Assembly: GCF_003095655.1 (NCBI RefSeq)
Contig: NZ_CP029151.1
Location: 3,347,001-3,411,000 of the forward strand
DNA length: 64,000 nt
Origin: Dokdonia sp. Dokd-P16
Lineage (GTDB): Bacteria; Bacteroidota; Bacteroidia; Flavobacteriales; Flavobacteriaceae
Direction: 5' to 3'
This document shows, in pieces, positions 9,033-55,431 of this stretch. Made by a program: the position numbers and the translations under genes. A model generated the notes under the pieces. That model searched no databases. It was not told the origin of the DNA and saw only the letters and a program-made list of their open reading frames with translations. Numbering within the stretch: the first letter of the stretch is position 1; the number at the start of each line of letters is the position of its first letter.

Positions 9033-10328
9033 ATGAAAAAAATTTCACTTGCTATAGTTGCCCTTGTTGGAATGCAATTAGCATCAAATGCACAAGAAAC
9101 ACTTGATACTCCTACAAACGACTTTAATAAGTGGTCTGTTGAGCTTACTGGTGGTGTAAACAAACCTGTAAGACCAGTTGCTTCTGGATTTTACTCAAAC
9201 ACTCCTTCTCTTTATACTGTAACTGGTGGAGCGAGATACATGTTCAACGAAAAATTTGGACTTAAAGGAGGTGTTGCTTACAACAGCTTCAAAAATGATG
9301 ATGATAGCCGCGAATTTGATACTGCACTTTACAACTTTTCTTTAGAAGGTGTTGTAAACGCTGGTAATATTCTTGGTTTTAGAGAGTGGACAGATACTTT
9401 TAATGTACTTGTACATGGAGGTATGGGATATTCTGCACTAACAACTGACGCTCCTGCTGTTGAAAGAGATTTCGGCGATGCAGATCAAATGTTAAGCTTT
9501 ATGGTTGGTGTAACTCCACAAATTAAACTTTCAAACAGAATCGCACTTGTTGCTGATCTTACTGCTGTAGGTAACGTACGTCAAGACTTAACTTTCAATG
9601 GTACTCCAGCTGGAGGAACTAGAGGATTTGATGGTTTTTATGTAAATGCTACTGCAGGTATTAACATATACTTAGGTAAAGCTGAGAAGCATGCAGATTT
9701 CTATTCTAGTGCAAACACTACAAAAGAAGAACTTGCAGACTTACAAAACCGTCTTACTAAAGTAGAGACTGATCTTATCGATACTGATCAAGATGGTGTT
9801 GCTGATTACTTAGATCGTGAGCCTAACACAATTTCTGGTGTAGCTGTAAACACTAAAGGTATCGCTGTAGACAAAAATGGAAATGGAGTTCCTGATGAAT
9901 TAGAATCTTCTTTAGATGTACGTTACGCTAAGAAAGGTGATATCGTTACAACTCAACCAGAAATGAAAACTGGTGGAGACGTTATCAAGAAACTTATCAA
10001 TGAAGGGTACGTAAATGTATACTTCCAGTTCAATAGCACTAAGCCTGAAACTTATAGCTTAGAGTCAATTAACTACCTAATCAAGTACATGTCTGAGAAT
10101 TCAGGTGCATCTGCTCAATTAGTTGGATATGCTGACGAAATTGGAAATACATCTTCTAACCAAGGTCTTTCTGAAAGAAGAGCTCAAAAAGTAAAAGATA
10201 TCATGGTAGCTGCAGGAATTTCTGCTAGCCGTCTTACTGCAACTGGAAACGGTGAAGATGCATCTGTAGATAAAAATTCTGCTCCTGCACGTCAGTTAGT
10301 ACGTAGAGTTACTTTTAAACTTAACTAG
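9033..10328 (+). CDS. OmpA-family outer membrane protein with TSP3-like repeat
   Basis: 431-residue major outer-membrane protein. A signal peptide (MKKISLAIVALVGMQLASNAQ) is followed by an OprF/OmpA-like beta-barrel of about 200 residues, a short coiled segment, an acidic thrombospondin-type-3-like calcium motif (DTDQDGVADYLDREPNT, about 250-266), and a C-terminal OmpA domain (about 315-431) with 'NVYFQFNSTKPETYS' and 'LVGYADEIGNTSSNQGLSERRAQKVKDIMVAAGI' that binds peptidoglycan. The ATG at 9033 is fixed by the promoter and the signal peptide. The strong consensus promoter suggests high expression; it probably anchors the outer membrane to the cell wall. Confidence 0.93.
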   Translation: MKKISLAIVALVGMQLASNAQETLDTPTNDFNKWSVELTGGVNKPVRPVASGFYSNTPSLYTVTGGARYMFNEKFGLKGGVAYNSFKNDDDSREFDTALYNFSLEGVVNAGNILGFREWTDTFNVLVHGGMGYSALTTDAPAVERDFGDADQMLSFMVGVTPQIKLSNRIALVADLTAVGNVRQDLTFNGTPAGGTRGFDGFYVNATAGINIYLGKAEKHADFYSSANTTKEELADLQNRLTKVETDLIDTDQDGVADYLDREPNTISGVAVNTKGIAVDKNGNGVPDELESSLDVRYAKKGDIVTTQPEMKTGGDVIKKLINEGYVNVYFQFNSTKPETYSLESINYLIKYMSENSGASAQLVGYADEIGNTSSNQGLSERRAQKVKDIMVAAGISASRLTATGNGEDASVDKNSAPARQLVRRVTFKLN

Positions 10329-53521: not shown

Positions 53522-53527
53522 AAGTAC

Positions 53528-53541
53528 GCTTTCGCGAAAAT
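53528..53541. repeat. Palindrome copy, 2 mismatches
   Basis: GCTTTCGCGAAAAT in the gap after the glutamate synthase-like gene. Confidence 0.75.
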
Positions 53542-53639: not shown

Positions 53640-53792
53640 GGTTTTAAGAAGTGGCTGATGTTTCCAGCAGACTGTTATTTTAATAATGAATATGGGTAAT
53701 TTTGAAAGCTCTATGCGCAGTGCACAACTCTCAAATTCATTGTATATTTAGAGGAAACGAACAAGACCATAAATTAAAGCAAATCAGCAATA

Positions 53793-53848
53793 CCGACAGC
53801 TATCGGGAGCCGCACTCGCTTTATGCAGTGGCCTGTTAGCATACATTT
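53793..53848. repeat. Left boundary of the LRR-gene element: hairpins plus inverted repeat
   Basis: CCGACAGCTATCGG hairpin (53793-53806), GCC-G-CACT...AGTGGC hairpin with an unpaired G (53809-53832), then TGTTAGCATACATTT (53834-53848). The last matches the complement of 55146-55160 at 14 of 15 positions. Confidence 0.6.
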
Positions 53849-53858
53849 GAACAAATCA

Positions 53859-55142
53859 ATGAACATATTCAATAAAGCCAAATCATTTTTAGAAAAAGAC
53901 AATTTTGACAATGTTCGAATTGACAAACTAACATTAAATGACAAAAAGTATGAGCAAACTACTGATACTGTTTGGTTTGTACCAAATAATATTGAGCAAT
54001 GTATAAGAGCTACTGAAAAACTTAATATTGAACATATTCATTTACAAACTTATACTCTCGATTTTCTAAATGATAAAAGATTAAAAAATGTCAAAGGAAT
54101 ATACATTCAATTTGAGATTGACGATTTAAGTCCATTAATGAATTTTCACCAATTAACTCATCTTAGAATATCTGAGGATAATAATAAAGTTTTTGATTTT
54201 TCGAACTTCCCTAATTTGATATTCTTAAATGGTATTGGACCAAAAAAATATGTAAATTTTGAAAAACTAACAAAGCTCAAACACGCATATATGAGGAATT
54301 ATAGAAAAAGGGACTTTTCAGAATTCTCAAACTTTCCAGACCTAAGAACACTTGAAATCTATTCTGGTGCTTGCGAAAATTTAAATGGATTATCTGGTTT
54401 AAAAAAATTAGAAGAATTAAAATTAGAAAAGTGTCCTAAATTAATATCTCTAAATGGAATTGATGAAACTAATGTTGATTTAAAATTATTACACCTAAGA
54501 AACTGTAAAAAGCTTCAAGAAGTTTCATCTTTAAGTGAATTAACAAATATTACTGATTTAATGATCTCGGAAGTGAACGAATTAGATTCTTTCCAGTTTT
54601 TGTCATCGTTAACAAAAATTCAAAATTTACATATAAATCCATTATTGATTGGAGTTAAAAAAGATGATTACTACCCATTAGTTGACAAATTGCAGAGTAT
54701 TGGTAAATTAGAACAGCTTAAAAAATGGGAAAAATTAGATGATTATTTAAATAAAAAGATTGACATTGAACAATTTAAAAAAGAGAAAACATCTGATTTA
54801 CAATCAATACTCAATCATTTATCAATAAAAGATTGGACTGGAAAATATGAAGATGGTCTTGATCAATACAATCTTAAAAATTGCAAAAAAGCTGAAAAAA
54901 TAATATCAAAATTAATTAGCAAACTTGAGACAAATAATGATATGAGCGAAAAAGAAAAAGTCGAACATATTAAGTTAAGTGTTTTGGAATTCAATAAACT
55001 TAACGATAGTTTAGATGGTTGCTTTATTGAAACAGGAGAAAGGGAAGAACTCTGTGATATATTTGACAACATTGCTGATTCGATAGGAATTGACATACAA
55101 AATTATGAAGATGGAATAGCCAGCGAATGGAGAGATTGGTAA
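53859..55142 (+). CDS. LRR-like hypothetical protein, AT-rich
   Basis: 427 residues from the ATG at 53859 (MNIFNKAKSFLEKDNFDN). The middle part contains irregular leucine-rich repeats ('LRTLEIYSGACENLNGLSGLKKLEELKLEKCPKLISLNGIDE..LKLLHLRNCKKLQEVSSLSELTNITDLMIS'). The C-terminal third is charged and helical, ending 'DGIASEWRDW'. No signal peptide, so a cytosolic protein-binding role (for example immunity or regulation) is possible but unproven. Base composition is clearly more AT-rich than neighbours, and inverted repeats flank it closely; probably horizontally acquired. Confidence 0.75.
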   Translation: MNIFNKAKSFLEKDNFDNVRIDKLTLNDKKYEQTTDTVWFVPNNIEQCIRATEKLNIEHIHLQTYTLDFLNDKRLKNVKGIYIQFEIDDLSPLMNFHQLTHLRISEDNNKVFDFSNFPNLIFLNGIGPKKYVNFEKLTKLKHAYMRNYRKRDFSEFSNFPDLRTLEIYSGACENLNGLSGLKKLEELKLEKCPKLISLNGIDETNVDLKLLHLRNCKKLQEVSSLSELTNITDLMISEVNELDSFQFLSSLTKIQNLHINPLLIGVKKDDYYPLVDKLQSIGKLEQLKKWEKLDDYLNKKIDIEQFKKEKTSDLQSILNHLSIKDWTGKYEDGLDQYNLKNCKKAEKIISKLISKLETNNDMSEKEKVEHIKLSVLEFNKLNDSLDGCFIETGEREELCDIFDNIADSIGIDIQNYEDGIASEWRDW

Positions 55143-55145
55143 AAA

Positions 55146-55160
55146 AACGTATGCTAACAA
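55146..55160. repeat. Right boundary inverted repeat (AAACGTATGCTAACA)
   Basis: 3 bp after the LRR-like gene stop; inverted partner of 53834-53848. Confidence 0.6.
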
Positions 55161-55431
55161 AGAACTGAGTTACAAAATAAACCTTTTTAAGCTAATCTCA
55201 ATCTAAACATTTCATCATAGAATCTTGTTGACGTGATGACAGCACAAACTTGTTTAAGAGTTCATTTGTAATTATGATAAGTGCTAGCGTTCTGCTCATA
55301 TTGTTCTCTTGCTATTCTTTCTATCATTCACTGTTCCTAAAATCCCAAAACTCTCAATACCGTAACAAAACTGCCGATTTACGTACTAACTAATAACTAT
55401 GTAAATCTCCAAAACATTATAAACTAAAATC
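55161..55431. other. Non-coding gap
   Basis: No gene, terminator or repeat recognised in this AT-rich stretch; presumably holds the promoter of the next gene. Confidence 0.5.

Follow-up and report, generated by a model that had tools for sequence, protein, structure and literature searches.

A leucine-rich-repeat (LRR) gene of Dokdonia sp. Dokd-P16 is enclosed by two short inverted repeats, and it raises the question of what kind of element the gene and its repeats form together. The gene lies in the window, i.e., the whole stretch of 64,000 nucleotides analysed here, which occupies 3.35-3.41 Mb of the 3.62-Mb genome. With a probability of about 0.82, the feature is regarded as a cassette integrated in a chromosomal capture system of the integron type, which would use a Xer/IntI-like tyrosine recombinase without the I2 domain of IntI. 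This reading is derived from sequence comparison, and neither recombination nor a circular cassette was observed.

The LRR cassette and its flanks

The 15-bp arms described in the initial annotation exist and match in 14 of 15 bases, the left one being located 10 bp ahead of the ATG at 53859 as had been reported. The right arm is indeed close behind the stop codon (which ends at 55142), but the gap is 2 bp and not 3. Low GC content was also correctly noted, with ~25-26% in the LRR gene vs ~37-45% upstream. Hairpins can be drawn in the left flank as proposed, but folding there is no better than in shuffled DNA (z = 0). The coordinates of all features are collected in Table 1.

Table 1. Features of the LRR cassette, the arrays and the recombinase (plain positions refer to the window)
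Feature	Position	Strand	Remark
Remnant of a gene-less cassette of ~436 bp (its last ~130 bp, including the 3' half of the attC-like site)	53700..53833	+	
29-bp core GCCGCACTCGCTTTATGCAGTGGCCTGTT (L'-like arm and GTT)	53809..53837	+	29/29 identity to core
Cassette 5' end, R'-like arm TGTTAGCATACATTT	53834..53848	+	Complementary to 55145-55159 with conserved A.C mismatch
Cassette gene, 427-aa LRR protein with C-terminal DUF5713	53859..55142	+	Pfam
Cassette 3' end, R''-like arm AAACGTATGCTAACA (...GTATGCTAAC)	55145..55159	+	Reverse complement of 5' end, one A.C mismatch
Variant ("type II") 3' block, starting AAAGAACTGAGTT	55159..55321	+	BLASTN similarity
Type II 3' block, further copies	L009 7140-7300; array ends of G091, G155, G164		
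Gene-less unit	L040 11632-12067		25 near-full copies in G000, G149, G152, G153
Arrays	C1:92-114 kb (array 1); 2582-2619 kb; 3545-3555 kb		
Tyrosine recombinase, 274 aa	C1:89970-90791	-	Divergent from array 1

The product of the gene matches the Pfam families LRR_4 (3.1e-8) and DUF5713 (4.9e-7). Comparison of 349 family genomes revealed only two copies of this cassette gene, both in Dokdonia sp. Dokd-P16. The second is 60 kb away, has identical ends and encodes a paralogue with 68% protein identity. A further copy of the ends at C1:579796 (one mismatch) sits within the EF-G gene and was rejected as a chance match. In a sister species, a cassette (L087 13789-14784) carries another leucine-rich-repeat protein, so LRR cargo recurs. 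A PADLOC search with the LRR protein and nine other cassette proteins returned a single protease-like match.

Taken as a lone inverted repeat, the window arms are unexceptional, as repeats of 16/16 and 18/20 are found in the same AT-rich 2 kb. Their significance follows from the recurrence of such ends throughout the genome and not from the isolated repeat. The one A.C mismatch between the 5' and 3' ends is shared with more than 40 other cassettes.

The sequence to the left of the gene matches positions 314-404 (84%) and 408-436 (100%) of a gene-less unit, and the 29-bp core within it is identical in numerous arrays of this genus. Another genome (G159) shares the flank (86%) at the corresponding locus, after a gene with a glutamate-synthase domain, up to base 53837, where a different cassette start follows. 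This comparison is limited to one contig, which extends only a short way into the other cassette. The crossover of the window cassette is inferred to lie within the GTT at 53835-53837. Of the relatives, G152 has a decayed remnant at this locus and G153 has none.

On the right, positions 55145-55321 resemble blocks located behind other cassettes in G000, G149, G153, G155 and G091 according to BLASTN. In two genera, this type II 3' block (AAAGAACTGAGTTAAAAAACAAGCC) is found at the end of outlying cassettes and at the termini of arrays. Pairing it by eye with the next L' arm gave fragments only, and its partner arm was not found. No full attC-like site was detected in the window, where the site model R1 had no match. 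Palindromes of the GCTTTCGCGAAAGC type recur in intergenic DNA of the genus (window 53525-53540; L009 7317-7336).

The window cassette is located outside the arrays, with the end of a neighbouring gene-less cassette on its left and no recognisable full site at its right end. Most likely, it was captured at a leftover 3' half-site or was left from a decayed array. It is best regarded as an outlying cassette, and it may now be immobile, because a complete attC-like site is lacking and the type II 3' block remains unexplained.

Cassette arrays and the sites between cassettes

The 124-bp left boundary has ~40 copies in the genome, distributed among three tandem arrays and single occurrences, and almost every copy precedes a different gene. 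The initial annotation had suspected a single-gene integron-like cassette, and this suspicion is supported both by these boundaries and by the tyrosine recombinase that adjoins the first array. Comparison of 69 cassettes across genomes revealed relatedness only between the two LRR copies and within one further, weak pair. The longest ORF follows the orientation of the array in 65 of the 69.

A cassette starts with GTT, six variable bases and [AC]A, and it ends with C[GT], six complementary bases and AAC. Simple scanning for pairs without the A.C rule gave many chance pairs in AT-rich DNA and was abandoned in favour of a non-circular test, in which heads were located through the conserved 29-bp core and tails through a downstream motif without the use of complementarity. 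Perfect pairing (7/7) was found in 34 of 57 head/tail pairs and pairing of at least 6/7 in 47, while shuffled tails yielded a mean of 1.05 perfect pairs (maximum 5). At position 11, 41 of the 47 end pairs have an A.C mismatch. Judging from these data, the two ends of each cassette appear to be two halves of one paired site, as expected if the cassette was opened from a circle. The ends retain GTT/AAC as well as the purine of position 4; the GTTRRRY box is not kept, and position 5 is a purine in only 10 of 47 heads. The earlier remark that the ends do not strictly match the attC consensus is therefore correct, the sites being structured in their own way.

Near-perfect 15-bp terminal inverted repeats fitted tightly round one gene could also belong to a small transposon or miniature element with its transposase elsewhere. 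However, the repeat sequence varies from cassette to cassette and complementarity alone is kept, so that there are no fixed terminal repeats. The cassettes are also arranged head to tail in a single orientation. No transposase was found in or near the cassette, and the initial annotation likewise had listed none; the ORFs around both LRR cassettes contain none. Hardly any weight can be given to such an element, and the capture-system reading is retained.

The sites between cassettes are mostly 117-121 or 181-187 bp long. They consist of AAC, three bases, a left arm (e.g., GTATATAAAAAATAGCG), a variable middle, a right arm (e.g., CGCTACTTTTCATATAC), about six bases and GTT, with spacers of 3 vs 5-7 nt. 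In 24 aligned sites, 82% of the stem cells are paired vs 21-36% when the alignment is slid. The covariation score reaches 0.296, compared with 0.072 after shuffling. Two stem positions depart from standard pairing in 20/24 and 24/24 sequences, the mismatches being A.C. On the top strand of 28 sites, 65 A.C/C.A mismatches were counted against 4 G.T wobbles; the corresponding numbers for other genera are 129 A.C and 12 G.T. Part of the A.C bias of the site model is built in, since the model was trained on these sites.

An A.C mismatch on the top strand is a G.T pair on the bottom strand; therefore, only the bottom strand folds as a continuous stem. In the DNA folding of two example sites, the bottom strand was continuously paired and the top strand was interrupted. 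With R and L arms, an unpaired central spacer and a bottom strand predicted to fold, the sites meet the attC criterion. In classical attC, the bottom strand is active and is chosen chiefly by extrahelical bases (PMC2727003). Such bases are absent as such here, and A.C mismatches are found where the bulges would be. It may be inferred that the strand is chosen by the type of mismatch (A.C vs G.T), no strand preference having been observed.

Many gene cassettes of this genus are separated by a non-coding unit of ~433-436 bp, the terminal portion of which has ~40 copies in the genome. This gene-less unit has 15-bp ends of its own (GTGGACGGCTGATTG / CAATCAGCCGTCCAC). It likewise has a long site of its own; there, L'' AGGCCACT[AG]C pairs with L' G[TC]AGTGGCCT and one base covaries. 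Perfect pairing was seen in 15 of the copies in which the left arm is kept; the variable base pair has one form in nine of these and the alternative form in six. In G149, the unit is located directly at attI and therefore behaves as a cassette. By analogy, one might guess that it is a promoter cassette.

The recombinase and its attI platform

The first cassette head of array 1 is located 112 bp from the start of the recombinase gene. Among named relatives of the enzyme, the nearest comes from an uncultured Dokdonia (87%), and two sister species show the same layout of recombinase and array, with recombinases that are 98.9% and 96.0% identical. In four Dokdonia genomes, the region from the recombinase to the array is kept up to GTT/GTG and is followed by unrelated cassettes. 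The interiors of array 1 cassettes are only 0-4% shared with the sister arrays, though the recombinases are 96-99% identical. An attI platform with a fixed crossover point is thus indicated, the reaction itself being inferred.

Adjacency of recombinase and array is not confined to Dokdonia. In other genera of Flavobacteriaceae (G091, G029, G141), recombinases with 46-48% identity are followed by the same type of head. In G010, the recombinase is 53% identical and the upstream region is similar, the contig ending there. Four other genera of the family (G131, G032, G517, G125) have a longer, array-adjacent recombinase of 375-391 aa that is directed at the array, its stop codon lying 31-203 bp from the first head. 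In L040, ~90 bp separate the end of a tRNA gene (9804-9877) from the recombinase gene at its 3' side; entry of the platform may have taken place at a tRNA. An Rfam search of L040 and L009 gave tRNA only.

Alternatively, homologous recombination might shuffle the cassettes, with the repeated site and the gene-less units as substrates and the adjoining recombinase as a bystander. The gene-less unit, 433 bp long and present in 25 near-full copies, is a good substrate for such exchange. Repeats alone would not, however, maintain the covariation of ends inside each cassette, and homology breaks exactly at GTT/GTG both in attI and at the locus of the window cassette. In other genera, arrays lack the 29-bp core of the gene-less unit and the recombinase is still adjacent. 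Homologous exchange is consequently considered an improbable explanation. In the preferred capture system, the recombinase would bind a site folded from the bottom strand, this strand being picked by the A.C to G.T asymmetry; it would exchange one strand at GTT and in this way insert circular cassettes at attI or excise them.

The catalytic residues RKHRHY are conserved across the aligned recombinases, except for an R-to-S change in one of them. The additional (I2) domain specific for IntI is missing in 22 of 22 Bacteroidota recombinases: the I2 segment comprises 34-40 residues there vs 75-78 in 17 IntI and 35-44 in Xer, and alignment to IntI4 shows a gap at the I2 position. The score against TIGR02249 is 184 bits, which is below the cut-off of 265. 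In the predicted structure of the L126 recombinase (pLDDT 82.6), the first match was IntI4 (E 4.5e-15) and the next XerA.

GTT/AAC boundaries, one gene per cassette and attC-sized sites (117-187 bp) would also suit a canonical integron cassette whose ordinary IntI is missing from the genome or was lost by it. Against this, the complete genome contains no IntI above the TIGR02249 cut-off, the array-adjacent recombinases of several genera have no I2 insert, the GTTRRRY box is not kept, and A.C mismatches stand in place of bulged bases. It is very unlikely that the LRR cassette belongs to a canonical integron, and the system with its own recombinase remains preferred.

In the phylogenetic tree, the Xer clade (100/100) and the IntI clade (100/100) are both recovered, and the Bacteroidota recombinases fall between them, outside the Xer clade. 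Forcing the Bacteroidota recombinases into one clade was not rejected (AU p = 0.44). Owing to this, a later gain of I2 cannot be distinguished from a sister-group relationship to IntI.

Distribution, meaning and comparison with known systems

The covariance model of the sites matched 95 of 395 sampled Bacteroidia genomes, belonging to 68 of 197 genera (E <= 1e-4). One Saprospiraceae genome was matched, and none of ten other genomes searched was (two Bacteroidota, the rest from other phyla). A Saprospiraceae MAG (L133) has two pairs of cassette-like ends upstream of the recombinase, and they show the A.C mismatch as well.

Reviews list Bacteroidota among the integron-bearing phyla (PMC8618304), and IntegronFinder 2.0 found one complete integron in Bacteroidetes proper, in Salinibacter (PMC9024848). 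Integrons of Bacteroidota may have been overlooked in surveys that depend on the IntI domain, as suggested by this Salinibacter-only result vs the 68/197 Bacteroidia genera obtained here. No description of such a system was found in the open-access literature; as subscription papers and preprints were outside the search, the novelty is provisional.

Integron integrases are held to need I2 for folded single-stranded attC (Messier and Roy 2001, as cited in PMC7790495). The origin of folded-attC handling is debated because intermediates are lacking (PMC7790495). In one classification, the IntI insert is incompletely conserved in an integron-like subgroup (PMC8138268). The combination of an integron layout and folding sites with the absence of I2 makes the I2 question testable. 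This integron-like gene-capture system is widespread in Bacteroidota, and it is possibly a living intermediate between ordinary recombinases and integrons. A bolder proposal can be put forward only tentatively: Bacteroidota would hold a large undescribed integron lineage that recombines folded single-stranded sites without the I2 helix and recognises the strand by an A.C/G.T code, and that split off before IntI gained I2, preserving the missing intermediate.

Among known systems, sedentary chromosomal integrons such as the Vibrio cholerae superintegron share with these arrays a tyrosine recombinase beside an attI-like site, tandem cassettes of one gene each with a common orientation, together with gene-less ones, and paired outer and inner arms round an unpaired spacer with a bottom-strand hairpin predicted to be favoured. 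Unlike them, the present system has a recombinase without the I2 domain and sites without the GTTRRRY box; its strand asymmetry would arise from A.C/G.T pairs and not from extrahelical bases, and its site model matches nothing in the tested outgroup genomes. Xer recombinases and dif-type modules are similar in the size and domain make-up of the enzyme. However, the sites described here are not fixed half-sites of the dif kind, the ends covary in each cassette, and the recombinase is outside the XerC/XerD clade, in which Xer sequences stand alone (100/100). The recombinases facing the array in G131, G032, G517 and G125 recall Treponema-type integrons, where the integrase has the orientation of the cassettes, but differ from these in lacking I2 and having an N-terminal extension of ~100 residues. 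The gene-less unit resembles the promoter cassettes of Vibrio superintegrons (PMC11014356) in that gene cassettes are interspersed with a non-coding cassette that has ends and a site of its own. It differs from them in that here one conserved unit of ~433 bp stands between most neighbouring gene cassettes.
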